Below are positions 4,064 through 25,690 of a stretch of 25,690 nucleotides of DNA, one piece after another; position 1 is the first letter of the stretch; every line of letters starts with the position of its first letter. This stretch comes from a virus, in the IMG/VR virus record IMGVR_UViG_3300022846_000081, positions 1-25,690 of that record; one strand, 5' to 3'. The notes under the pieces were generated by a model. The model was not told the origin of the DNA, did not search any database, and saw nothing but the letters and a program-made list of their open reading frames with translations. The translations under genes were made by a program, and so were the position numbers.

Positions 4064-4175
4064 ACAAATAACTAATAACGAATAACGAATAACCAGTATC
4101 CAGTATCCAGTAACCAGCATCCAGTAACCAGCATCCAGTAACCAGTATCCAGTATCCAGTATCTAGTATCCGGCC
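4064..4175 (+). repeat. Heptad array, about 16 units (ACGAATA/TCCAGTA type)
   Basis: An uninterrupted 7-bp period runs for 16 units. The unit drifts from ACAAATA and ACGAATA through ACCAGTA to TCCAGTA and ACCAGCA. The phase is unbroken where the AATAACG type changes to the CCAGTAT type, so these are variants of one array rather than two. It ends 10 bases before the ATG at 4186, where CCGGAGGCCGAC supplies a good ribosome binding site. Confidence 0.9.
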
Positions 4176-4185
4176 GGAGGCCGAC

Positions 4186-5541
4186 ATGACATCCACAATC
4201 TATGAAAGAGGACAGGCACGGGAATCAATCATCTGGAACCCGTTTGAGTATAACGGGCCTTTCAACACCGTCCATGACGCTGAGAGAACTATCATATTTG
4301 GGCTCTATGCGAACACCTACCTTTATGGACATAATTACCTGAACGAGATCGAAACAGAAGATCTTGCGCGGTTGGTTGATAATTACACCGTTGCCATTGC
4401 TCAGATTACCAATGATGAGGCGCAGCTTGCCCTTGATGTTGCGGCCAGGCGGTATGTGGAACGGATAGAGGGCCAGATCCACGATGAGAACCTGATAACG
4501 AGAGACAAGAAGATAGATGCCTTAGATGATGAGTATGACGCGAAGACGGCAGCCCTTGATGCCGATTATGAAGCCATTACGACCATGCAGGCCAAGGTCC
4601 AGTTAGCCTGGGACAAGGCAACACAGAAGATAAAAGACCTTGAAATGAGGACCGAGCTTGAGGATGTGGCGCAGTCTCTTGTTGATGTGGACATTACAGA
4701 GCAGGAATTGAGAGCCGCTAAGGCTGATCTTGCTGTGATAGAGGCAGGGCTTAAAGGTCTTGACATTCAACTCGCCATCACACAGGCGGGAATTGACCAA
4801 ACCGATACCGACCGTCAGATTACAGAGGCCGGGATTAAGGTTGATGAGGTAGGCATAGAAGTATCTGAAACAGAGGTTAAGGAATTCGGTGTGGATCTTG
4901 ATATTACCAATGCTGGTATAGGACTAAGCAAGTCGCGGGCCGCTGGGGAACGTATCAAAAGTGATACGAAAGGGGTTGCTGTCCGAGTTGCAGAGACAGG
5001 TCTACAGATTGTAGAAACAGATGCTAAAAAGTCTCAAATTGATGCAGAAATATCTAAGATTGAAGCTGATACTGCGAGGTTGGCATTGGTGGATAGTGAA
5101 AAAACCATTGCCAGGGCTGACAAAAGGATAGTCCAGGCAGAGAATAACTTATTGGTAAAAGAAAAGGATCTTATAAAATCACAAGAGGACAACGTAACGG
5201 ATGAAACAATTTTCATAGATGACCAGAAGATCGAGCAAGAGACATTGGATGGTAAGATTATAGAGCATGATCAAGCTAAACATGATTTTGACATAGGAGT
5301 AAGCGAAAAAGAAACCGATTTTGAAGACAACTTAAAGGATATAAAAGTAAATGCTTTTGATACGAAAAGAGATTTGGTTGATGAAGTCAAAGTTAGTAAG
5401 GTTGGAGATGCTAACGATAGAATTAGAATCCACGCTATAAGGACTGAAGAGGTTCAACTCCTTGCAGATGCAGCCATTACCGCAGCGCAAAACATAGCTG
5501 ATGCAAATATAGTAAATACACTAACTCATTCTATAGGATAA
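4186..5541 (+). CDS. Long coiled-coil phage structural protein B (451 aa)
   Basis: Function unknown. Residues 1-75 form a small aromatic-rich N-terminal domain (WNPFEYNGPFNTV, then YLYGHNYLNEI). The remainder is a long charged helix. Its middle (about 185-265) contains degenerate repeats of the type 'QxxITxAGIxxxxxD(R)xI', a quasi-repeat of 11-15 residues that suggests a trimeric or otherwise specialised coil. No Cys, Trp-rich end or membrane segment is seen past the N-terminal domain. The start is well supported by CCGGAGGCCGAC ahead of the ATG. The stop is separated from the next ATG by only two bases, so the following gene is probably translationally coupled and its product a partner. Confidence 0.8.
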   Translation: MTSTIYERGQARESIIWNPFEYNGPFNTVHDAERTIIFGLYANTYLYGHNYLNEIETEDLARLVDNYTVAIAQITNDEAQLALDVAARRYVERIEGQIHDENLITRDKKIDALDDEYDAKTAALDADYEAITTMQAKVQLAWDKATQKIKDLEMRTELEDVAQSLVDVDITEQELRAAKADLAVIEAGLKGLDIQLAITQAGIDQTDTDRQITEAGIKVDEVGIEVSETEVKEFGVDLDITNAGIGLSKSRAAGERIKSDTKGVAVRVAETGLQIVETDAKKSQIDAEISKIEADTARLALVDSEKTIARADKRIVQAENNLLVKEKDLIKSQEDNVTDETIFIDDQKIEQETLDGKIIEHDQAKHDFDIGVSEKETDFEDNLKDIKVNAFDTKRDLVDEVKVSKVGDANDRIRIHAIRTEEVQLLADAAITAAQNIADANIVNTLTHSIG

Positions 5542-8032: not shown

Positions 8033-11000
8033 ATGCCATCTTCAAATTTAGCTGATATTGCGGGGTTTATACGTCAGGAGCAGGAGAAGGACGAGCGGCT
8101 GTTAGCCTCATTGGCGCGCCCGCAAAGGCCCAAGGCCCATACTTATACGCCCGAGGAGCGGTTTGGGTTTATCTCGCAGCGGGGCAAGGAGCTGATCCGG
8201 GATAATCCCGACCGGGATTCGAAGCTCCTGCAGGCCGGGATCGATGAGATAGGGGAATGGAAGGAGGCCCCGAATAACTATCCGGTCCTCGAGGACTTGG
8301 AACGGTACGGGGCCGAACGGATGAAGAGGGTAGAAGAGGCAAGCCCTGGCGCACTGACCGAAGCCGCGAAAGGTGTTGGAAGGGCGGCGCTGCGATGGAA
8401 TGAGGCCGCAAATACGGGATTGCAATGGCTCGGAAAACAGGCCGAAAGCGGCTGGTTGGAGCGAAAGTTAGGTGTTGCCGATGCAGGTGGAAAAATCGCT
8501 GAGTGGGCTGAAGGCAATGTAGAATTCCTTCAGCGGAAACAGAAGGAATGGGGTCTTGAACAAGCTGAAAAGTTTAAGGGAAAGAATGCAATAGATAATC
8601 CTGAAATACTTAAAGACGCTTCCTGGTGGGCCGGAACGCTTGCGGAGTTTGGTACAGACCTTGGGGCTATGATTTTACCTTCCATGCAAGCCCATAAAAT
8701 AATCACTACAGCAGGAAAGGCCACCAAGATGGCCCCTGCCCTTATAAAAAGTCTCGCAGACATAGGGGCTAAAATGACGGGAGGCGCCATTGGAGTAGGG
8801 CTTGAAGCAACCGCAACTTACCAGAATGTTTTAAAGCAAACCGGTAGCCACGAGGAAGCGACCCTTGCGGCCGGTTTGTTTGCTCCCGCGGTGTTTGCCT
8901 TGAACGCTTTTTCTGTGGGTAAGTTGATGCAACATGCCGGTCAGGGGTTAATGGCTAAAGGCGGCAAGGCTTTAGTGAATTTCTTGACTGAAGGCACTAC
9001 CGAAGCACTGGAAGAGCCCGCGGAAGTGGCGTCACAACTTGCAGCGAAAATAATACAAGGCAAACCCGTTCCTGAAGAGTGGAAAGAAATGTTTTCGGAC
9101 TCCATGAAGCAGGCGGCAACGGTATTTCTTCCCGCCGGAATAGCCGGGGGCGGGATGTCTATGGCGACAGGCGTAGGGCGCGAGGCGGAAAAGCCGGTCG
9201 ATGACGGCCAGGGGATGGGGGCGGATACCGGGCAGGTGGATGAGGTAGGCGAGGCAGAATCCAGTATCCAGCATCCAGAATCCAGTATCCAGCATCCAGT
9301 ATCCAGCATCCAGCATCCAGAATCCAGTATCCAGCATCCAGAATCCAGTATCCAGCATCCAGAATCCAGTATCCAGAATCCAGTAGGTGATGCGCAGACG
9401 GAGATAAAAGAGATTGGGGCGGAAGGGATAGCGCTTGAGACGCTTTTGGAGACGCCGATCGAGGAAAGATTGGACCTGCCCGCCAGTGCCAGGCGTTCGC
9501 AGGCGGGTGTTCCACGTGGAACGGAAGAACAGCGGGAGGGCGAAGCGGTTTTACCTGATATCGTCCCGCCGGAGACCTCACCCCCTCCGGCAGCGGTCAT
9601 CCCTCCAACGCCTCCGGATCAGGGCGCCACCCCCGGTCCGGAGGTCCCTCCTCTTACCGAAGAGGAGCGGGCGGAGTTGTGGGAGATGGCGCTGTCTGAT
9701 GAGTTTGTGCCCGAGGATCTGCGGACGGTGGATTTAGAGCAGATGGCAGGGGCACTGGAGGTGGAGTTACCGGAGGGGTATGGGAGATTTGAGCTGCTTA
9801 AAGGGGTGAACGATAAGATAGGGGCAGAAAAAAAAGAAAGTGGTCAGGAGGCAGTGGTCAGTGGTCAGGAGGCAGTGGTCAGTGGTCAGGAGTCAGTGGT
9901 CAGTGGTCAGAAGGAAGCGGCAGAGCCTGCCGTAATCCGGACTAAAACAGATAAGCCTTTTAAGACGGAGAAGTCTGCGGCGGCGGGTTTGAAAAAGGCC
10001 AAGAAGTCAGAGTTTGACTACGATTTAATCAAAGAGGGTGACGGGTATATATGGCAGGAGAAGGCTGAAAAGCCGACCGGGGATGCAAGGCTGATTCTTG
10101 AAGAGGAAAAGGCTACGGCGCATCGCAGGGAGTTGTTGCGGGATGCCCCGGATTTCCAGACCGCCGTTAAACACGCAGGGGGGCTGAGAACAACCCGTAT
10201 GAGTTATAAGGGCGAGATCAGGGATATCACCAAAGGCCCCGGCGGGGTCTCTATATCCATACTGAATAATAAGACCGGTCTCGGGACCGATGAGATGACC
10301 CTGGCTATGATCGAGGCGGGATGGCTGCCGCAAGATGCCACGGAAGATGATCTGATAGAATATATCGAAAACAATCCCACGGAGAAGCTCTCTGACTATG
10401 AAAGTGAAGAACACCTTGACAAATTGCAGGAGGATGAGTATATAAGGCAAAAGGACCGTGAACGCGAAGCGGGGGAATCAGAAGATGACATTGATGCAGC
10501 TGAAAGAGATGGCGAAAGAGAGGCGGATCAGGAGCTGGAAGAGGCTTATGCGGAAGCTGAACGCAAAGCCAAAAACGGAGAATACGACCAAGACGCCATA
10601 GATGAGCTTGATATATGGTTCAAAGAACAGCAATCTCTCTTTGGTAAACCTGAAGAACCTCTTTTAAAGCCGGAAGAACTAACCAAGAAGGAAAGATTAG
10701 CCCGGGCACAGGATGAGGCCAAAAAGAAAGGTCTCACCAAGAAGGGTAAAAAGCCGGTATTTCCCGCTGACAAAGGTATAAAACCCGCTAATGTTGGACG
10801 ACAACGAGGGTTATTTGAAAATGAACAAGGACAGATCGACCTCTTTGACGAGGGGGTTGAGGTACCGCAAAATGAACAACCGATTTATGAAAACACCGAG
10901 CCCGAAGAAATTGCACTTGTGCCTGGTAAAGAAGAAGGCCGTGCCTTACCCGGTGCTGGACGTGTGCAATATCGGACCTCCGGAAATATTAAAGCGGCAG

Positions 11001-16425: not shown

Positions 16426-18141
16426 ATGCCTGATTTTCGACAAAAGACTCATGTGGTAAAGCCCCTGCAGGACATCCGCAAGCGTTTCGAGCTGTTGTCT
16501 ACCCGCCGGGTGCTTTTGATTAACCGTCTGGGCGGGATCGGCGATATCCTCTGTGCCCGTCTGCTCTTCGAGGACCTGAAGCAAGTGCCCGGTGTCGGCG
16601 AGGTCACCTTTGCGGTCCCCCGGAAGTATTTACCCCTGATCCAGGACCATCCCTTTATCGATCATAAGATCGCGGTCGAGTCCCTGAATATGGACACGGT
16701 AGAGGATCACTATGTCCTGATCAAGGATATCACCATGGTGCCCGGTAAGGTCGAGCGCCGGGCCATGCCTGAGGTAACCCGGAACCGGGCCGATGTTTTG
16801 GCCGGGTCCATTGGCCTGTCCCTGACCTCACATCGGGGTCATCTGACCTTTACGGATGAAGAAATGACCTTTGCCCGTGAATATCTCGACCGGTTGGGTC
16901 CGGGAAAGAAGATCGGAATCGCGCCGGTTACCTCCCACCCTTCGAAGGACATCCCCATACCACTTGTGCAGGATCTGATCGGTTGGTGCCGGCAGGAAGG
17001 GGCGCTTCCCCTGATATTTCATGATAGGGATCTCCCGATCAAGGGCGGAATAACCTGCCGCGGTCTCGGTCTCAGAGAGTGGATGGCCGTGACATCCTTA
17101 TTAGACGCGGTGGTTGCCCCGGCATCGGCCATGTTCTGGATTTCTCAGCTCACTGCGAGGCCCACGGTGGCCGTATTCGGGTGCGAAGACCTGCGGGTTT
17201 TCGGGAAATACCACCTGAACCTGCGAATAATAGAGCGACGGGCCAAAGGGACCCGGCTGCCATATTCCACAGTGGTGGGAAAACAGGACCGGGTAGAGCC
17301 GTTTAAGGGCGACTGGGTATACTGTCCCTGCTGGGATGCGCTCAAGTGCGCGTACAAGGAGTGGGGAGATTATCCGCCCCTCTGTCTCGAATCGATCCAG
17401 CCGGAGGAGATCACCCGTGAGTTAAAGGAGATATTGAACGCCCCTGATCCGGCAGAGGCCTTTGACCGGGATTATTTTATGAAGCGGGGGCATTTAGGCT
17501 GGTACAACGCGGAGGCCTGGGGCACTGACAACACGTTCCACCAGAGTTATGCCGGGTTTATCATCGACGTGTTAGGGCTTTCGCCCGGGGACCGGCTGTT
17601 GGATGTGGGGGCCGCGTTCGGGGATCTCGTGTATCACCTGCGCCAACAGGGTATCGACGCCCACGGGGTGGATATCTCCAAATATACGGTTAAAACCCGG
17701 CACGTTTCGACCCTGAAGCAGGCGGATGTATCCATGGGTCTGCCTTACAGAGACGGGTTCTTTGATGTGGTAATTTCGAGGGACTGTCTCGAACATATAC
17801 CGGAGACGCGGGTACTTGATGCGCTAAACCATATCGAACGGGTCCTAAAGCCCGCAGGGCTGGCCTTTCTTGCCATTGCCACGGATTATTTTGATAAGGA
17901 GACCCAAAAACGGGTGCACAAAATCAAGCAGGACCCGACCCATGTCTGTATCCGGGATACGACCTGGTGGCACTGGAAGCTGAAAAAAGCCGGGCTCATA
18001 CCCGATGACGCGGTCGGCGGCCGGGTATCGGCGCATCCGTTGGTGTCGGGGAATCGATGGGAGATATTTACGGCAAGAAGTGGGAATGGGACGGGGGTGG
18101 GAAAAGATGAACATCGAGGTAAGCGAAGACTCCGATTTTGA
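16426..18141 (+). CDS. GT9-like glycosyltransferase fused to a SAM-dependent methyltransferase (571 aa)
   Basis: The N-terminal half (about 28-345) has the layout of GT9 (ADP-heptose/LPS heptosyltransferase-like) GT-B enzymes: VLLINRLGGIGDIL at 29-42 as the first nucleotide-sugar-fold strand, then KKIGIAPVTSHPSKDIP in the C-terminal subdomain and a later VAPASAMFWISQLTARPTVA segment. A class I methyltransferase follows, with motif I LLDVGAAFGDL at 391-401, an acidic residue in GVDIS, FDVVISRDCLEHI and VLKPAG. Sugar donor, acceptor and methyl acceptor are unknown. Fusion of sugar transfer and methylation in one chain suggests O-methylation of the sugar just added, which is inference. The last residues (DEHRGKRRLRF) come from a GAGGTAAGCGA repeat. 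ATG 16426 follows the GAGAG end of a repeat element. Confidence 0.8.
   Translation: MPDFRQKTHVVKPLQDIRKRFELLSTRRVLLINRLGGIGDILCARLLFEDLKQVPGVGEVTFAVPRKYLPLIQDHPFIDHKIAVESLNMDTVEDHYVLIKDITMVPGKVERRAMPEVTRNRADVLAGSIGLSLTSHRGHLTFTDEEMTFAREYLDRLGPGKKIGIAPVTSHPSKDIPIPLVQDLIGWCRQEGALPLIFHDRDLPIKGGITCRGLGLREWMAVTSLLDAVVAPASAMFWISQLTARPTVAVFGCEDLRVFGKYHLNLRIIERRAKGTRLPYSTVVGKQDRVEPFKGDWVYCPCWDALKCAYKEWGDYPPLCLESIQPEEITRELKEILNAPDPAEAFDRDYFMKRGHLGWYNAEAWGTDNTFHQSYAGFIIDVLGLSPGDRLLDVGAAFGDLVYHLRQQGIDAHGVDISKYTVKTRHVSTLKQADVSMGLPYRDGFFDVVISRDCLEHIPETRVLDALNHIERVLKPAGLAFLAIATDYFDKETQKRVHKIKQDPTHVCIRDTTWWHWKLKKAGLIPDDAVGGRVSAHPLVSGNRWEIFTARSGNGTGVGKDEHRGKRRLRF
18115..18136 (+). repeat. GAGGTAAGCGA repeat copy at the end of a coding region
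   Basis: A single copy of the core CGAGGTAAGCGAAGACTCC is found, one of the same family as the two coding copies at 12497-12573. It forms the C-terminal tail of the glycosyltransferase-methyltransferase. Confidence 0.7.
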
Positions 18142-18158
18142 ATAAAGGGCAAAAAAGT

Positions 18159-18355
18159 CTCTCGCAGAGGCACAGAGGGCACAGAGAAAAGATTTATAAA
18201 TTAGAAACTCTGTGATCCCTGCCCGCCAGTGCCAGGCGATGGCAGGCGGGTCTGTGGGCCCTGTGAGAGAAAATCTTTTAAAATTAAAAACTCTGTGTCC
18301 CCTGCCCGCAATGCTTCGCAACGCGAGGCAGGCGGGTCTGTGGGCTCTGTGAGAG
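18159..18355 (+). repeat. CACAGAGG inverted-repeat element, copy 5, with two nested palindromes
   Basis: Here the palindromes are in the right arms: the 35-bp type (18217-18251) in the first right-arm block and the 38-bp type (18300-18337) in the second. Both are reverse complements of copies seen elsewhere and both split a CTCTGTG unit at the same relative point. The final GAGAGG (18351-18356) is the ribosome binding site of the next gene. Confidence 0.85.
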
Positions 18356-18361
18356 GAAATG

Positions 18362-19441
18362 ATGAAAAAATTTCTGTTTGTGCATGATATTGAGAAGGGC
18401 TGGTTGGAGAAACACCGCACGGCCCGGGAGGCGACGCAGAATGTGGCCGTGTGCTGGATGAAATGCTGGGACTGGAAGAACAGGGAGGCCGAGTGTCAGT
18501 CCTGGCAGGAGGTGACGGTAGAGGAGTGCAACCGGTTTGAGTATGTCATGTTCTGGCTGCTGACCGAACCGGGCAACCCGGAGAAGTACGAGAAGATCCT
18601 CCGGGTGATCCGCGAGATGAAAACCGCGAGCATCGCGTACTGTGACGGACCGGTAGGCTGGGGGTATCAGATGAATTCACTCCCCCTGCCCTTTAAAAAA
18701 ACCTGGCTCAGTATCTGCCGCGAGGCAGAACATATGTTTTGTTATTCGAGGGACGAGAGTATTCCCTACTGGCGGGCGATCCGCGGGGGTGGGCATTTTC
18801 ACTCGGTCGAGTATCCGTATCCGATCGAGGTATCGAACGGCAGGCATTTTCACGCGATCGACCGGCCGCATCCCGTAGAGGCGGCAGAGACAGTGGGGGA
18901 TATCCCGAAAGGGTCTTATGTGGCATTGGGCAAGGGTATCCAGAATGTCAATGAAGAACGAAATATCTTCTCTTCCCTGGCCGTGGCCCGGTTTCTCCGC
19001 GACAGATACGGACTATCCGTGTTTTTGCATACGGCCACTCCGATCGAAGACGCGGCCGTCATGCGGGACAGTTACGCATTGGTCGGGCTGACCGACGTGG
19101 AGGAGATAGAGTTGAAGCCCTGGGGCCGGTATCTCAAGGACCTGGCCCGTGCCCGGATCGCCGTGCATCTCGATATCTTAGAGACCCGGGGGCAGTTCCC
19201 CTTAGACTGCGCCACGGTGGAGGTACCGCTTGTGTGCAGCGGGTCTGTGGCCGGGGAGCGGTTGTTTCCGTACACCTATATCCAACACCCGCGCGATATC
19301 GACCGGGCCTGTCATCTGGCGGATCGGCTCCTGAAAGAACCGGAATTTTACAAAAAAGTGGTGGATCATGCCCGCAAGGCCATAAGGGCCTACTCCTACG
19401 AGTCGGTCCGGGAGCAGTTTGAAATGGCGGTGGCATCATGA
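18362..19441 (+). CDS. Glycosyltransferase of the GT-B type (about 359 aa)
   Basis: The C-terminal third has the usual GT-B retaining-transferase layout: LKPWGRYLKDLARARIAVHLDI, then PLDCATVEVPLVCSG, then YIQHPRDIDRACHLADRLL and a YSYESVREQF end. The N-terminal part is less typical (MKKFLFVHDIEKGW) but starts with a beta strand and a charged loop, as GT4-like enzymes do. Substrates are unknown. At about 142-176 a 17-residue unit is tandemly repeated (HFHSVEYPYPIE then HFHAIDRPHPVE). The start at 18362 sits 5 bases after GAGAGG, a better spacing than the in-frame ATG at 18359. The end overlaps the next gene by ATGA, so the two are coupled. Confidence 0.75.
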   Translation: MKKFLFVHDIEKGWLEKHRTAREATQNVAVCWMKCWDWKNREAECQSWQEVTVEECNRFEYVMFWLLTEPGNPEKYEKILRVIREMKTASIAYCDGPVGWGYQMNSLPLPFKKTWLSICREAEHMFCYSRDESIPYWRAIRGGGHFHSVEYPYPIEVSNGRHFHAIDRPHPVEAAETVGDIPKGSYVALGKGIQNVNEERNIFSSLAVARFLRDRYGLSVFLHTATPIEDAAVMRDSYALVGLTDVEEIELKPWGRYLKDLARARIAVHLDILETRGQFPLDCATVEVPLVCSGSVAGERLFPYTYIQHPRDIDRACHLADRLLKEPEFYKKVVDHARKAIRAYSYESVREQFEMAVAS

Positions 19442-20502
19442 AAGAGCGATGGGAACCGATACGGAAGCAGATTAATTTCAAGACCTTTATCTATATAGGC
19501 GGCGGGCTCGGTGATGTGGTGCATCATTATAAGAACAACGCCTATTTCAGGATATTGGCGAGCCTCAGGGACTATTTTCCCCTGCTGCGGGTATATCTTT
19601 ATTTAGACGGGAAGAATCCCGGTCTGACCCGGCAGATCTTTGAAAAGGATCCGGGGATAGATGAGATCGTCACGGCCCACCAGAGGGGCGGTGACTTCAA
19701 CTGGACCCATATCGACCGGTTTATGCGCGATACCTGCCGGATCGATCCGGGGGCTATGGCGGCCTATACGTCCGGGATGGATCCGGAATGGGTCGTCCGG
19801 CGTGTGGTCAACCGTATCTATCCCCTGATCCGGTTTCCGAGGATCCGGGCTATCTGTATGGATGATTTTTTTCAGCAGATGGATCTGACGGTAGACGAGT
19901 TTGACTTTGAATTGGCCGAGGTCGCCTGCGGGCCGGATGACCTGAAGGCGGCAAAGGCTCTGATCCATAAGGCCCGGTCCGACGGGTTGTGTATTATCGG
20001 TATCCATCCCTTTACCCATGATCCGGGCAGGGCGTGCTATCCGGTGAACCGATGGAAGCTGATCATCCGGGATCTGCTGAACCGGAACTATGCAGTGGCC
20101 GTATTCGGCGCCCCGGACGAGCGCGAACCGTTTAAGGAGATCCTGACCGGGGACCGGGTGATCGATCTGACCCATGAGATCGGAATCAGGACCAAGACGG
20201 CTATCCTCAAGCAATGCGCGGGGTGTATCACCATTGACGGTGCCATTATGCACCTGTCCTGGCTCCATGCCATACCCACGGTGAGTATTGTAGAGCGGAC
20301 CCCTGACTGGAGCCCGAGTTTTACCACGAATGTCCACGGGTATCACTGGGCCTCGATCGCCGAGGAACCCTTTGCCCGCCGGGTCATTGTCGAGCAGGGC
20401 AAGGCCGGGGATATCGATCCGGGAGAGGTTGTGAAAACCGTTATGATGCTGGCGCCGTTTAAGGGGATGCGGACGAGTAAGGTGTGGAGAGATCAGTTGT
20501 GA
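19438..20502 (+). CDS. GT9-like glycosyltransferase (354 aa)
   Basis: The product has the GT9/heptosyltransferase layout: FIYIGGGLGDVVHHYKN near residue 15-30 (N-terminal nucleotide-fold loop), then LCIIGIHPFTHDPGRACYPVNRWK at the start of the C-terminal subdomain, AVAVFGAPDERE, and 'CAGCITIDGAIMHLSWLHAIPTV', equivalent to the 'D(S/G)..MHLA' region that binds the donor in this family. Donor and acceptor are not known. It shares only distant similarity with the fused enzyme upstream, mainly in the GLGD/GIGD loop and the DGxxMHL-type end. It starts inside the preceding gene (ATGA overlap), so the two are translated together. Confidence 0.75.
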   Translation: MKERWEPIRKQINFKTFIYIGGGLGDVVHHYKNNAYFRILASLRDYFPLLRVYLYLDGKNPGLTRQIFEKDPGIDEIVTAHQRGGDFNWTHIDRFMRDTCRIDPGAMAAYTSGMDPEWVVRRVVNRIYPLIRFPRIRAICMDDFFQQMDLTVDEFDFELAEVACGPDDLKAAKALIHKARSDGLCIIGIHPFTHDPGRACYPVNRWKLIIRDLLNRNYAVAVFGAPDEREPFKEILTGDRVIDLTHEIGIRTKTAILKQCAGCITIDGAIMHLSWLHAIPTVSIVERTPDWSPSFTTNVHGYHWASIAEEPFARRVIVEQGKAGDIDPGEVVKTVMMLAPFKGMRTSKVWRDQL

Positions 20503-20519
20503 AAAAAAGATGAAAAAGG

Positions 20520-20632
20520 CTCTCACAGAGGACACAGAGGACACAGAGAAAAGATTTATAAATAAAAAAACTCTGTGATCTCTGTGGGCTCTGCCTGCCC
20601 CGTAGCTCCGGGAGATGGTACCGGGGTGAGAG
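20520..20632 (+). repeat. CACAGAGG inverted-repeat element, copy 6, with nested palindrome
   Basis: The left arm and loop are intact. A 33-bp palindrome (20594-20626), the reverse complement (one base different) of that at 15246-15278, splits the right arm between CTCTG and TGAGAG. The 25 bases before this element (poly-A, GATGAAAAAGGCTCTCAC) match those before copy 3, so these two copies are close relatives. Confidence 0.85.
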
Positions 20633-20673
20633 AAAATCTTTTAAACTTTGCGCCAGCCTGGAGAGCTGAAATT

Positions 20674-20913
20674 ATGGAGAAGAGTATCGGGCAGTTGGTG
20701 GATGATCTAAGTATCGCTAATATCAAGATCTGGCATTTGCAGGACAGGGTGTCGGCAGGGGATGATGATAAAAAGGTCGCGGAAGCGGCCAGGCAGATTA
20801 TCGTGGAGAACACGTACCGGTGCAACCTGGTCCGGGCTATTGATCAGGCCCTGGGGCAGGAGGCGTCATACAGTGAGGTGAAACTGTTTCACTGTATGAC
20901 CAATAACAAATAA
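20674..20913 (+). CDS. Small helical protein, possibly DUF4254-like (79 aa)
   Basis: The protein is a short charged helical protein: SIGQLVDDLSIANIKIWHLQDRV, then DKKVAEAARQIIVENTYRCNLVRAIDQAL. The 'SIGxLxDxLSIxNIKIWHLxD' beginning resembles small DUF4254-type proteins I associate with sugar-related clusters, but I cannot confirm it. It sits between a glycosyltransferase and a methyltransferase, which fits that association. The frame is open from 20575, but that part reads through the repeat; GGAGAGCTGAAATT before ATG 20674 sets the start. The stop runs straight into the heptad array. Confidence 0.6.
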   Translation: MEKSIGQLVDDLSIANIKIWHLQDRVSAGDDDKKVAEAARQIIVENTYRCNLVRAIDQALGQEASYSEVKLFHCMTNNK

Positions 20914-21016
20914 CTAATATCCACTATCCAGTAACCAGTATCCAGCATCCAGCATCCAGTAACCAGTAACCAGTATCCAGTAACCAGCATCCAGTATCCA
21001 GTAACCAGTAACCAGT
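20912..21016 (+). repeat. Heptad array, 15 units (ATCCAGT/AACCAGT type)
   Basis: The 7-bp period is unbroken from AACTAAT through ATCCAGT, AACCAGT and ATCCAGC variants. It ends 14 bases before the ATG of the next gene, and the intervening CCGGAGGCTGAC keeps the same phase and supplies the ribosome site. That cassette differs by one base from that after the array at 4064-4175. Confidence 0.9.
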
Positions 21017-21030
21017 ACCCGGAGGCTGAC

Positions 21031-21801
21031 ATGGTCTGTAATAAGGTGTTTGAGGATAAGGATTATGAGGGCTACGTGGATATTGTGGCCAGGTTGAAGG
21101 CTACGGCCCGGGGTCTTGATGCGGACGGGATAAAAGGTGTCCCGACCGGCGGGGTCCGGTTGTGGGAGTGCGCCCACGTGGCGGGCTGTATCCGGCCCAA
21201 GCGGGGGGATGTGGTGCTGGATATCGGGAGTCACAGAGGCCTGCTCCCCTTCTATCTGAGGGAGTTGGGATGTATCGCTCACGCTATTGATCCCGATCCG
21301 CCCGATCAGGAGTTTCTGGACTATGCGTCGAATCAGCGGTGGATTGTCTATAGGGAGGCCGACATATACGCGATCCCGTATCCGGACAGGTGTTTTGATG
21401 CGGTCACATCCATCTGCGTGTTGGAGCATCTGGTGGAGGACTGCGCCGAGGACGAGTTTGTAGACCGGATTGCCGAGGCCGTCCGGGAGGTTATGCGGGT
21501 CCTGAAACCGGGGAGGGTGTTTGCCAGTACCGTTGATTTTTACGTAAAGGGGTTTAACACATTCCGCACCTTTCACCGGGACCTGCTGTACGAGATAGTG
21601 GAGGCCGTGGCCGATGTGGCCGTACCGGTCGGGGATCTGGATTACGACATCCCGGACCCCTGGGCCTATTACATCGAAAACAGCACAGTGTACGCCGCAG
21701 ACGACCCGCGCCGGCACGAACATATCGAGAAATTGAAACAAAAGATACTACCCGACAACCTGTTTACCTGCGCGGCCCTGGTGTTGAGGAAGATGGTATG
21801 A
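21031..21801 (+). CDS. SAM-dependent methyltransferase (256 aa)
   Basis: This is a class I methyltransferase. Motif I is VVLDIGSHRG (61-70), followed by an acidic strand end (HAIDPD), then FDAVTSICVLEHL and EVMRVLKPGRVFAST, the motif IV to VI order of small-molecule and glycan methyltransferases. The N-terminal 55 residues may bind the acceptor. The C-terminal 60 residues (PWAYYIENSTVYAAD...) look like a family-specific extension. Acceptor unknown; position next to glycosyltransferases suggests a sugar. It resembles the methyltransferase half of the fused protein at 16426-18141 only in the general fold. The start has CCGGAGGCTGAC in front. Its stop overlaps the next ATG (ATGA). Confidence 0.8.
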   Translation: MVCNKVFEDKDYEGYVDIVARLKATARGLDADGIKGVPTGGVRLWECAHVAGCIRPKRGDVVLDIGSHRGLLPFYLRELGCIAHAIDPDPPDQEFLDYASNQRWIVYREADIYAIPYPDRCFDAVTSICVLEHLVEDCAEDEFVDRIAEAVREVMRVLKPGRVFASTVDFYVKGFNTFRTFHRDLLYEIVEAVADVAVPVGDLDYDIPDPWAYYIENSTVYAADDPRRHEHIEKLKQKILPDNLFTCAALVLRKMV

Positions 21802-22214: not shown

Positions 22215-23291
22215 ATGGCAAATACAATTCAAGTAAAACGTGGAGCGTTCGCCTCTCTGCCGACACTGGCAGCGGGAGAGTTCGGTTTCAGTACTGACAC
22301 CAAACAGATCCATATTGGTGATGGAGCGGCAAATCACGAAGTTTTGATGCATGCCCTGTTTGACGCGCAGTCTCTGTTGGCAGCGGTTACGGATGACACC
22401 CCTGTCGCGGTTACGGTGGCGGAACAGAGAATCGTCGGTCGTAAGACGGCCGGAGACATCGCCGCCCTTACAGGCGCGGAGATTATGGCAATTTTATCCG
22501 GTCAGGCCGGCGCTGATTTTGCGATAAATACTCATAAGATTACGGGGGTTGTGGACCCTACGGCCGATCAAGACGTGGCAACCAAGAATTATGTTGATGC
22601 TACATTGAGCGGCCTCGATCTTCATGCTTCGTGTAAATTGGCCACGGCCGCGGCATTGCCTGCATGTACTGCGGCGGGGTCGGGAGTGGGGAAAACGCTG
22701 ACGGCAGATGCGGTGGGTATTTTGACGGTTGATGGAGTAGCCACTGTTCTCAACGATCGAATTCTGGTTAAAGACCAGGTCACGGGCGCTGATAACGGTA
22801 TTTACAAGGTCACGACCGAGGGAACGGCGGGCGTTGCTTTTATCCTAACCAGGGCAACGGACTTTGATGCAGATGCAGAGGTGACCGCCGGGGCTTTTAC
22901 TTTCATCGAGCAGGGTACGGCTAACGGTGATGAGGGCTGGATTCTTACCACGAATGATACCATTACGGTTGATACAACCGCTCTTACCTTTACGCAGTTC
23001 TCAAGCGCGGCGGCTCCCGTGGCAGATTTTGTCGGGTTGAGCGATACACCAGCGAGTTATAGCGGTGAAAGCTTGAAGATAACCCGCGTTAATGCTGGTG
23101 AAACAGCGCTTGAGTTTGTGGCTTTTGCAGCCACTTATTTAGAAGCATCTCCGAGCAATGGAGAAACAGGAAAGGCGCCTAACAGTGACTGGGCTTTTGA
23201 CCACGATGCGGCAACCACCGGAGTCCATGGCGCAGGAGCAAATACGCTGCTGCACAGTGGGAGTACGATTGACGGCGGGGCCTTTGCATAA
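22215..23291 (+). CDS. Tail fibre protein with Mtd-like N-terminal domain (358 aa)
   Basis: Residues 1-42 (ANTIQVKRG, LPTLAAGEFGFSTDTK, IHIGDGAANH) are the N-terminal domain of phage major tropism determinant (Mtd)-type proteins, which joins the receptor-binding protein to the tail. Residues 80-125 include NTHKITGVVDPTADQDVATKNYVD, a usual phage fibre motif preceding a trimeric rod. Residues 170-270 contain 'DRILVKDQVTGADNGIYKV' and the 'EQGTANGDEGWILTTNDTI' segment, a beta domain found in many tail fibres. The C-terminus (GVHGAGANTLLHSG) is short and carries no lectin fold. It probably forms a fibre arm or adaptor. The start has AAAGGAGAATAAATC ahead of ATG. A second, truncated relative lies at 23797. 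Confidence 0.85.
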   Translation: MANTIQVKRGAFASLPTLAAGEFGFSTDTKQIHIGDGAANHEVLMHALFDAQSLLAAVTDDTPVAVTVAEQRIVGRKTAGDIAALTGAEIMAILSGQAGADFAINTHKITGVVDPTADQDVATKNYVDATLSGLDLHASCKLATAAALPACTAAGSGVGKTLTADAVGILTVDGVATVLNDRILVKDQVTGADNGIYKVTTEGTAGVAFILTRATDFDADAEVTAGAFTFIEQGTANGDEGWILTTNDTITVDTTALTFTQFSSAAAPVADFVGLSDTPASYSGESLKITRVNAGETALEFVAFAATYLEASPSNGETGKAPNSDWAFDHDAATTGVHGAGANTLLHSGSTIDGGAFA

Positions 23292-23296
23292 GTGTG

Positions 23297-23371
23297 CTGG
23301 ATGCAGGATGGACGATGCAGGATGGACGATGCAGGACTCCAGTATCCAGCATCCAGTATCCAGGAATCAGT
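23297..23371 (+). repeat. Mixed heptads: GATGCAG/GATGGAC and TATCCAG/CATCCAG
   Basis: The first part has CAGGATGGACGATG (14 bp, two heptads) repeated. The second part has TATCCAG, CATCCAG, TATCCAG as in the other arrays. The two halves look like opposite-strand versions of the same repeat (CTGGATG is the complement of CATCCAG), so the array may contain a strand switch. It lies just before the ribosome site (AAGGAGCGATACAATT) of the next gene. Confidence 0.7.
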
Positions 23372-23387
23372 AAGGAGCGATACAATT

Positions 23388-23852
23388 ATGGACGACGCAA
23401 CGATTACACAGGAAGAACCCTTGATCAAGGAGCGGTTTCCCTCGGTTGTAGACACTGACGACCTGATATTTGAATTAGGGAAACAGGCAGTCAAGGCGAT
23501 CAATTATGAAAAGCTGTTAGATAGTATGCTAAAAAAAACACAGGCCTTGAGTGCAGCGACATCTGACGTCACTCAGGCGAGGTCGGAGATGGAGGCCGAG
23601 AAACAGGAGCTCCAGAAATCTAATGCCCTTTACCAGGAGAATAATCGCCGGTTGGATGCTGCGCTGGTTAAGGTCAGAAATGATAAAGCCGTGCTCGAAG
23701 ACTTAATCCCTGCAAAGGATAAAGAAATAGAGACATTGAATAATGTGATCCGCGAAAAAGATACTTTAATCGGCGAATTAACAGAGAAGGTCAAACTTGG
23801 CAAACACAATACAGGTAAAAAGAGGCGCAAACGCGTCACTCCCGACGCTTAA
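23388..23852 (+). CDS. Coiled-coil protein between fibre genes (154 aa)
   Basis: Function unknown. Residues 40-135 form a strongly charged coiled coil (QARSEMEAEKQELQKSNALY, then LEDLIPAKDKEIETLNNVI). The last 19 residues (GKHNTGKKRRKRV) are basic. The frame is open from 23292, but the upstream part reads the heptads, so ATG 23388 with AAGGAG in front is taken as the start. The final 56 bases are shared, in another frame, with the next gene. The protein could be a fibre chaperone or assembly factor, by position only. Confidence 0.7.
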   Translation: MDDATITQEEPLIKERFPSVVDTDDLIFELGKQAVKAINYEKLLDSMLKKTQALSAATSDVTQARSEMEAEKQELQKSNALYQENNRRLDAALVKVRNDKAVLEDLIPAKDKEIETLNNVIREKDTLIGELTEKVKLGKHNTGKKRRKRVTPDA

Positions 23853-24075
23853 CGCCGGCGAATTCGGGTTCAGCACGGACACTAAGCAGATCTATATTGG
23901 TGATGGGGCCGCGAATCACGAACTGGGCACAGTATCCCATCATGTCCCTATTGCTTCGTCAGGGGACTTCACGATCCCCACGGGCCGCAGCTTCATCGGC
24001 GGGGATGAATATAGCGTGGAAGGAACTGATATTTTAGAGATTCAGGGAACGGGCATGATGATACTCGTAGGATAA
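23797..24075 (+). CDS. Short Mtd-like N-terminal domain protein, TTG start (92 aa)
   Basis: Residues 2-42 differ from those of the 358-aa fibre at only three positions, so this is the same Mtd-type tail-attachment domain. After it come 50 residues (GTVSHHVPIASSGDFTIPTGRSFIGGDEY) and the protein ends, with no receptor domain. The start is TTG at 23797 with AGAAGG six bases upstream; no ATG fits, and the match to the paralogue begins at exactly this codon. The gene overlaps the coiled-coil gene by 56 bp in the +1 frame. It may be a separate small adaptor or a fibre that has lost its distal part. Confidence 0.75.
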   Translation: MANTIQVKRGANASLPTLNAGEFGFSTDTKQIYIGDGAANHELGTVSHHVPIASSGDFTIPTGRSFIGGDEYSVEGTDILEIQGTGMMILVG

Positions 24076-24084
24076 GGAGCAACT

Positions 24085-24492
24085 ATGTCAAGGATAATAT
24101 TAGAAGAACAAGCCGCGCCGGGTACACCATCAACCGACAAAATAGCTATTTACCCGAAAGCAGGTGGGGGGATATATAAAAAGGATGATGCAGGGGTAGA
24201 GGTGCGGCTGGATAGCGGTAATATGGTTTCCGAATCGGTGGCTGATGATGCAGAGATCGTGCTGACTACAGCCGTTTCCGGCTGGGGACAAGCGATGGCC
24301 GGGGATAACGAGGAATATATTGAATTTCGGTTTACCGCAGCGGGAGTCGTAACGGTGATATCTAACTCGGCCAACGCGGTCGGGGCGGATACGGATGGCA
24401 ACCTTTGCGTGTATGATGCGGGTACAGGGATAGCAATCAAAAACAGATTGGGAGCCACAAAAGATATTAGATACGTTGTTAATTACTCATAA
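24085..24492 (+). CDS. Phage fibre-associated beta protein (135 aa)
   Basis: The N-terminal part (ILEEQAAPGTPSTDKIAIYPKAGGGIYKKDDAGVEVRL) is the pattern 'P.stdkvalY.kagg.lY.kddaGvE..L' common in phage tail fibre or spike proteins. The remaining 90 residues (YIEFRFTAAGVVTVISNS) are beta-type, as in small capsid or tail decoration folds. It follows the short Mtd-like gene by 9 bases, with its ribosome site (ATAAGGAGCAACT) overlapping that gene's stop. The genes from here to the right edge are packed without gaps longer than 13 bases. Confidence 0.75.
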   Translation: MSRIILEEQAAPGTPSTDKIAIYPKAGGGIYKKDDAGVEVRLDSGNMVSESVADDAEIVLTTAVSGWGQAMAGDNEEYIEFRFTAAGVVTVISNSANAVGADTDGNLCVYDAGTGIAIKNRLGATKDIRYVVNYS

Positions 24493-24505: not shown

Positions 24506-24784
24506 ATGCGTGGATATCCTAAACATATAGCGAACAAACGAGATTTTAACAACCTGATGGACATGCCGGAATATAAAACGCAGGCATTGGCGGACCTGAA
24601 ACGATTACAGGTGATTGATGACGCTAAAGTAATCAGAGTTGTCTCAGGTTCGGAAGAAGACAAAAATCTCGTCACGGAAGAAATAGACAATCCGAATCCG
24701 GTGTGGAAACAGAAAGGATTTGCAACTAAAAAAGCTGTGGATGATCTGGTGACGGAGAAGGAGGTGGTGACAGATGGCAAATAG
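24506..24784 (+). CDS. Small protein upstream of the lectin-fold tip protein (92 aa)
   Basis: The sequence begins MRGYPKHIANKRDFNNLMDMPEYKTQALADLKRL and ends with NPNPVWKQKGFATKKAVDDL. I recall similar 'RG(Y/F)PK...TK.D..NL' proteins next to phage tail-tip genes, but no function is known to me. It is helical and charged with no membrane segment. A perfect AAGGAGG precedes the start. Its last 11 bases overlap the next gene, whose ribosome site GAAGGAGGTGG lies inside it, so the two are coupled. Confidence 0.7.
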   Translation: MRGYPKHIANKRDFNNLMDMPEYKTQALADLKRLQVIDDAKVIRVVSGSEEDKNLVTEEIDNPNPVWKQKGFATKKAVDDLVTEKEVVTDGK

Positions 24785-25690
24785 ACTGATAACACAGATT
24801 GAATCGCAGAACGCCCTACTCGGGGCTGTTGTAGCGAACTTCATGCTGAACAAGCTGGATCGGATCATCGAATATAAAGATGCTGACGAGGTCACGGTCA
24901 AGGGGGCGAATCGAATCCCCTTACTGATTAATGACAAGTGGTTTTACATCGATACAGACACGGATCTGGACACCGGGGCGGATCTGGACACCGGGGCTGT
25001 TGCGGCGGGGACGGATTATTATGTGTATGCGTGTGACAATTCAGGGTCTCTGGTCTTTCTCATTTCAGCGGCCAGCACCTATCCAAGCGGTTATAATGCC
25101 AACACGAGCCGTAAGATCGGTGGGTTTCATACGATCTGTGCTGCGGCTGGGACGATTGGCGGGCATACACTGACCGACCATCCTGCAAACGGGATATTGC
25201 CACAATCGGTCTGGGACCTGAAACACCGGGCCAGGTGCGGAAGCAATGCGGGTATGGTCTGGAGTGAGGAAGCTCAGGTCTGGGTGGACATCTATCTGGC
25301 AAGCGGAACAGGGGCTTCTACTGTGAGTGTCAATGGCGGAACGATTTCAGACACCCGTAACTGGATGGATTTCGTGGATGATTACGGGGCCGTTGGAAAG
25401 CGAATGCTGAGAGATCCAGAGTTTCAGTTGATCGCTGGCGGAAGCAATGAGGAAACCAATATTAATGGTGACTCTGATCCCGTAACCACGGGTGGGCATT
25501 CTGATAGCGCATCTCGCCGGATGATCAGCAATATCGGCTGTGAGGACTGTTGTGGGGCTCTGTATCAGTGGTTGGTCACTCCAGCTGCAAGGCTTGATGA
25601 TGGAACTCATGCTGGAGACTGGGTCGACCTTGATGGAGCTAAGGGGTCTTTTTACACTTATGGGATTGCCCCTAATTATTATGGCAATAC
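24774..25690 (+). CDS. Tail tip protein with C-type-lectin/FGE-like fold, probable DGR target (5' 305 codons; 3' end outside window)
   Basis: ATG 24774 has AAGGAGGTGGTGACAG in front and the frame stays open to the window edge. Residues 1-130 form an N-terminal domain (LLGAVVANFMLNKLDRIIEY, then FYIDTDTDLDTGADLDTGA) with an 18-bp tandem duplication. Residues 140-305 follow the C-type-lectin fold used by formylglycine-generating-enzyme-like variable proteins of diversity-generating retroelements: LPQSVWDLKHRARC, NWMDFVDDYGAVGKRMLRDPEF (GKRM at 208-211, position of the FGE 'GxRLPtEaEWE' motif), a G/S/D-rich loop, then SRRMISNIGCEDCCGALYQW (CEDCCG at 256-261, position of 'GLYDMxGNVWEW'). The window ends before the expected Arg/Gly/Trp-rich C-terminal part that would hold the variable residues. 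Confidence 0.7.
   Translation, partial: MANRLITQIESQNALLGAVVANFMLNKLDRIIEYKDADEVTVKGANRIPLLINDKWFYIDTDTDLDTGADLDTGAVAAGTDYYVYACDNSGSLVFLISAASTYPSGYNANTSRKIGGFHTICAAAGTIGGHTLTDHPANGILPQSVWDLKHRARCGSNAGMVWSEEAQVWVDIYLASGTGASTVSVNGGTISDTRNWMDFVDDYGAVGKRMLRDPEFQLIAGGSNEETNINGDSDPVTTGGHSDSASRRMISNIGCEDCCGALYQWLVTPAARLDDGTHAGDWVDLDGAKGSFYTYGIAPNYYGN

Follow-up and report, generated by a model that had tools for sequence, protein, structure and literature searches.

In the BPP-1 diversity-generating retroelement (DGR), arranged in the order mtd-avd-TR-brt, the accessory protein Avd is a partner that the element needs, and an Avd accessory gene is encoded by most, though not all, known DGRs. A 2018 paper by Wu et al. 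in NAR reportedly lists further DGR accessory proteins. The reverse transcriptases (RTs) of DGRs carry the motif [IVL]GxxxSQ, and in the DiGReF survey the substitutions were judged to be essentially random (PMC3521204); a map of the BPP-1 element reported other context effects (PMC12875486). For the DGR of the virus ANMV-1, the legend of Figure 1 in its description labels an Avd ORF (Paul et al., 2015; PMC4372165). Here we describe a viral gene, at positions 24774-25690 of the window, for which the best explanation of the evidence as a whole, and a very probable one, is that it is targeted by an active DGR which the phage encodes and which belongs to a lineage lacking Avd.

A truncated Mtd-like target gene

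The window is the whole of the virus record IMGVR_UViG_3300022846_000081 of IMG/VR (G000), 25,690 bases long, so that the target gene is truncated where the contig stops. The features at this end are as follows.

22215..23291, + strand: tail/fibre gene with an Mtd N-terminal domain (Pfam PF18454, E 2.9e-11) and phage-fibre modules
23797..24075, + strand: small gene with an Mtd N-terminal domain (Pfam Mtd_N PF18454, E 6.9e-13) and a TTG start
24085..24492, + strand: small tail-block gene without Pfam or PHROG family match
24506..24784, + strand: small gene immediately 5′ of the target and overlapping its start, without Pfam or PHROG family match
24774..25690, + strand: 5′ 305 codons of the DGR target gene, the frame 24774-25688 being stop-free up to the contig end
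24942..25217, + strand: Mtd second domain, target residues 57-148 (Pfam mtd_2nd PF21916, E 1.1e-23)

Residues 52-299 of the target match PHROG 11262 'tail protein' (E 1.5e-53), and in the related contig L002 the gene is full length, encoding 347 aa (L002:3344-4387). The AlphaFold model of this complete product has a mean pLDDT of 73 and is weak at residues 226-248 and 297-302. When the model was compared with PDB folds, the top matches, with E between 2.9e-18 and 2.1e-16, were the five Mtd variants, followed by formylglycine-generating enzymes (FGE; best E 8.2e-4). Both marks of the Mtd family, the second domain and the predicted fold, are present in the target. The search also returned the lectin/FGE fold that the original prediction had assigned to the C-terminal part of the protein, and the two upstream genes that it had called Mtd-type are those matching Mtd_N. 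No Pfam match to Mtd_N was obtained in the target polypeptide, this domain being located on the two separate upstream genes; the first of them, 22215-23291, also matches PHROG fibre and decoration families, and the second, 23797-24075, overlaps the 3′ end of 23292-23852.

Other features of the window were recorded in passing. A block of long genes (571, 360, 354 and 256 aa) is flanked by structural genes at 16426-21801; visual inspection suggests methyltransferase-like motifs in the 571-aa and 256-aa products and a glycosyltransferase-like appearance of the 360-aa and 354-aa products. A degenerate 7-nt unit (CCAGTAT/CCAGCAT/CCAGTAA) forms same-strand arrays at 4093-4171, 9255-9385, 20918-21017 and 23300-23370. 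The arrays near 4100 and 20950 are intergenic, that at 9255-9385 runs in frame within a 2,396-aa ORF and that at 23300-23370 lies at the start of ORF 23292-23852. Segments of the form 'CACAGAGG ... CTCTGTG', with 50-nt and 9-nt periods, recur between genes (2388-2504, 20524-20600 and similar) and are common to several intergenic regions.

Continuation beyond the contig end

A search of viral contigs yielded 66 relatives. Over overlaps of 4,127 and 2,213 bp, contigs L002 and L003 match the window with 100% identity, and L004 shows 97.7% identity to it in an overlap of 1,299 bp. The variable repeat (VR), the template repeat (TR) and the RT were all read from these near-identical contigs of other samples, none of them lying inside the window. 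In L002 the continuation contains:

L002:4264-4377: VR, 114 nt, beginning after a 3-nt gap from the window end
L002:4454-4567: TR, 114 nt, with a VR-TR gap of 76 nt
L002 about 4568-4700: structured spacer between TR and RT
L002:4701-5711: RT
L002:5704-6000: ORF98 (98 aa), overlapping the RT end

The original prediction, that the gene is cut just before its variable region, turned out to be exact, as the window ends at L002:4260 and the VR starts at L002:4264. Following the sequence to the right in L002, L003 and L004 revealed a VR, a TR and an RT of the DGR clade, and the VR and TR of these contigs are the near-repeat pair, differing at template adenines, that had been anticipated. A TR, an Avd-like gene and an RT had been placed within about 2 kb; TR and RT lie within about 1.5 kb, and the expected Avd-like gene is absent by the bAvd model, the small conserved ORF98 following the RT instead. 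The VR occupies the 3′ end of a target with a predicted C-type-lectin/FGE fold. The L002 RT was assigned to phrog_1423 'Reverse transcriptase' (E 1e-117) and also matched Pfam RVT_1. Its motifs are IGNFTSQ, which conforms to the DGR consensus, and YCDD; the IG...SQ and Y-C-D-D residues are invariant across 18 relatives.

Nine further contigs end between -60 and +140 nt from the VR start, a count that leaves out L019, whose end is the split of one two-target contig into two loci. Such clustering of contig ends is expected if hypervariability breaks assembly. The contig in question (IMGVR_UViG_3300009494_000223, comprising L019 and L025) belongs to one phage with two DGR-type target genes in tandem. 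Relatives in which most of the RT is gone were also observed: L009, L016, L032 and L046 have kept the target, and L009, L016 and L046 the TR, and at L009:11292-11471 the reading frame passes, across an in-frame deletion, from about codon 38 of the RT to about codon 72 of ORF98. Among MAGs with relatives of the cassette, the labels include Desulfobacterales, Deltaproteobacteria, Nitrospirae, Omnitrophota and Bacillota.

Adenine-restricted variation and recent activity

Every difference between TR and VR falls at a TR adenine (14/14 in L002, 16/16 in L003 and 17/17 in L004). With 30 adenines in the 114-nt TR, the chance probability of adenine-only differences is about 5e-10, 1e-11 and 2e-12, respectively. 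The TRs of the three contigs are identical, 25 of the 30 TR adenines are changed in at least one of them, and the TR read in the VR frame contains 10 AAY codons. Comparison of L002 with L003 revealed 18 differences over 5,764 bp, all of them in the VR at TR-adenine sites, which is direct evidence of recent activity in nature. In all 117 RT loci with a VR/TR pair, the TR was downstream and the changes were on the TR-adenine side, although the finder permitted both directions. Drift of the TR after the last homing was rejected as the source of A/G differences, given zero non-adenine mismatches in runs of median 114 nt.

Of the IMH/IMH* and the inverted repeat that would be expected behind the VR of a DGR, the locus shows a GC-rich shared 3′ end and, at L002:4415-4430, a 6-bp stem with a 3-nt loop. 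Stems of at least 7 bp were found behind the VR in 4 of 24 loci, compared with 1.9% of random stretches; a perfect inverted repeat as a conserved element at this place was rejected as inconsistent among loci.

In the mechanism that we propose, a transcript of the TR and the folded spacer would be copied by the adjacent RT with errors at adenines, and the resulting cDNA would home to the 3′ end of the Mtd-like gene and replace the 114-nt VR there. Replacement of the VR would change the exposed face of the C-type-lectin/FGE fold and, with it, probably the receptor bound by the tail.

A structured RNA between TR and RT

The TR-RT spacer encodes a covarying RNA that is absent from Rfam, which gave no match over the VR-TR-RT region or over the window. 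Alignment of 20 relatives showed four helices, with pairing in 94.5% of cells. Changes on both sides were seen in 89 cells, as against 29 in shuffles and no more than 27 in slid controls, and the covariation was 0.53, compared with at most 0.15 when slid. A covariance model of the spacer finds the element in the TR-RT spacers of dozens of loci outside its building set, with weak matches in one crAss-like and two Avd-type DGRs.

A small ORF behind the RT and the absence of Avd

The bAvd model (PF22296) detected nothing in L002, L004 or ANMV-1 and found the BPP-1 Avd used as positive control. It had no match in 59 of 60 related records, the match in the remaining one (G028) being below the curated cut-off. 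A second Avd-like model, PF05635, gave nothing over its cut-off but also missed the BPP-1 Avd, so it adds little. The gene that follows the RT, ORF98, has known relatives among hypothetical proteins of ANMV-1 and vir525. Scans with nothing but the ORF98 profile retrieved 13 genome loci and 114 viral loci (80 kept), and the adjacency of ORF98 to the RT is also seen in these loci, in genomes and in viruses. Of the 125 loci, among which several contigs are represented twice, 101 have the RT stop no more than 60 nt before ORF98, usually overlapping it; for most of the others there is an RT close by or immediately downstream of ORF98 (L079, L144), or the RT has been deleted or is truncated by the contig. 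An extra small gene of about 105-140 aa was noticed between RT and ORF98 in L082, L092, L098, L129, L136, L139, L140, L142, L147 and L159.

Profile comparison rejected ORF98 as a homologue of Avd or of BPP-1 bbp4, and its profile had no match in a PDB sequence search. The AlphaFold model, built on 20 sequences, is a small β-barrel with the OB-fold order b1-b2-b3-a-b4-b5 (pLDDT 87); among its top Foldseek matches in the PDB were RPA, RuvBL and HIN domains, all non-significant (best E 0.048, all above 0.04). From this model, ORF98 is probably an OB-like protein, and it probably stands in for Avd as a partner of the RT or of nucleic acid. In the RT tree, a single clade (99/94) unites the Avd-type RTs, and the ORF98 label can be explained by 3 changes, where shuffles require 11.4; the branch of the ANMV-1 RT is long.

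Sequence context of the adenine substitutions

At sites between two A-to-C/T changes, which are surely inside the converted tract, interior TR adenines in NAG context were read in the VR of ORF98-type DGRs as 124 G, 15 A, 2 T and 1 C (n=142), whereas at other adenines G accounted for 366 of 1,563 read bases and 678 stayed A (Fisher 5e-53). Because relatedness among loci inflates such P values, the count was also made by TR cluster: G is the majority at NAG in 17/21 clusters and at other adenines in 0/24. By trinucleotide, the VR reads G at 93% of CAG, 83% of CAC, 35% of TAC and 13% of AAT sites. At every one of the three CAG sites of this phage, the TR has A and each of the three VRs reads G. 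Among Avd-type phage DGRs NAG was read as 14 A and 1 G (Fisher 1.8e-10 against the ORF98 type), a small control with 15 NAG sites in 17 loci, where the unchanged A could reflect selection. The non-Avd crAss/Perkons DGRs gave 19 G and 4 A at NAG. Template slippage as in BPP-1, which predicts A-to-C at NAC, was rejected, since CAC sites are 83% G and 2% C.

These counts suggest that NAG adenines of Avd-less DGRs may be converted either by the RT or during an editing step. Adenines in AA/AT context would be randomised and those before G would nearly always become G. If so, G-to-A drift in the TR at such sites could be silent, and structural Gly or Arg residues could survive although the TR spells Ser, Arg or Gln there.

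Alternative explanations

A different account of the context bias is that A-to-G changes at NAG reflect selection for Gly/Arg anchors, with no copying rule, and many NAG sites do correspond to codon positions of conserved Gly or Arg of the VR (IGGR, GSR). Four-fold synonymous third positions within the converted tract are informative here: at NAG they read 32 G, 5 A, 0 C and 0 T, a count drawn from many TR clusters and one for which selection on amino acids does not account. The 5′ neighbour also matters, as the difference between CAC and TAC shows, and we regard selection as an improbable cause of the pattern.

Two other explanations concern the element itself. It could be an ordinary Mtd/Avd-type DGR whose Avd is too diverged or encoded elsewhere, ORF98 being an unrelated phage gene that came to lie after the RT by chance. 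Avd proteins are indeed short and divergent, and small genes directly behind the RT exist in other DGR phages too. However, neither Avd model gave anything over its cut-off in the ORF98 records, although bAvd finds the BPP-1 gene; the VR-TR gap of L002 is too small for Avd; the genes behind the RTs of Avd-type phages are unrelated to ORF98; and scanning with ORF98 alone leads to RT neighbourhoods, including the swapped order of L079 and L144. An ordinary Avd-type element is therefore unlikely. That the DGR has decayed, with target and TR kept but diversification ended, would agree with the RT having been mostly lost in the relatives L009, L016, L032 and L046, but this phage has an intact RT, an intact ORF98 and a TR that is the same in three contigs, and its VRs show up to 18 differences within DNA that is otherwise identical, which makes decay very hard to sustain. 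An active DGR of an Avd-less lineage accounts best for the locus.

Significance

The truncated prediction has been completed and the element shown to be active in situ. It is read as a new DGR variant, the novelty of ORF98 and of the context rule having been compared with part of the prior surveys. That the Avd-less lineage, spread over bacterial and archaeal viruses, combines an accessory protein of its own, ORF98, with a two-mode template code is a joint proposal towards which we lean slightly. If the code is true, NAG would be read near-deterministically as G and other adenines randomised, and a template might then hold silent A-for-G positions yet give a foldable protein. Such a rule runs against the view of essentially random substitution taken in the DiGReF survey (PMC3521204) and, if real, could guide the design of templates for targeted protein diversification. 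With more than 100 examples of the Avd-less type, what replaces Avd becomes directly testable.

Comparison with known systems

The BPP-1 DGR resembles this element in its Mtd-fold target, its 3′ VR and the TR downstream, followed by the RT; the RT is about 37% identical to brt and the TR-RT spacer is about 130-160 nt. Unlike it, BPP-1 encodes Avd in the interval from VR to TR and is without ORF98, and its Mtd has the N-terminal domain in the same chain, whereas here the domains are on separate genes. In Avd-type DGRs as a group NAG adenines are unchanged at 14/15 sites, the BPP-1 TR being without an interior NAG site. The crAss-like phage DGRs (for example cr55_1, cr52_1 and LMMB) have an RT in a neighbouring tree group, are without annotated Avd and show NAG-to-G, at 17/20 sites in the three named, but have no ORF98 homologue behind the RT. 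The ANMV-1 DGR (AdtA) has an Mtd-like target, a TR and an RT, followed by a homologue of ORF98 (AJP62065.1, annotated 'hypothetical', with 41% identity); its NAG adenines are read as G at 5/6 sites, and the bAvd model found no Avd there. It differs in belonging to an archaeal virus and in its RT, which is only 36% identical and branches beside Avd-type RTs. Caudoviricetes sp. vir525 (BK063673.1), a Methanosarcinales virus, has a different phage genome and an accessory gene annotated only as 'hypothetical protein', but the gene order is the same and target, RT and ORF98 are 56%, 63% and 38% identical, respectively.
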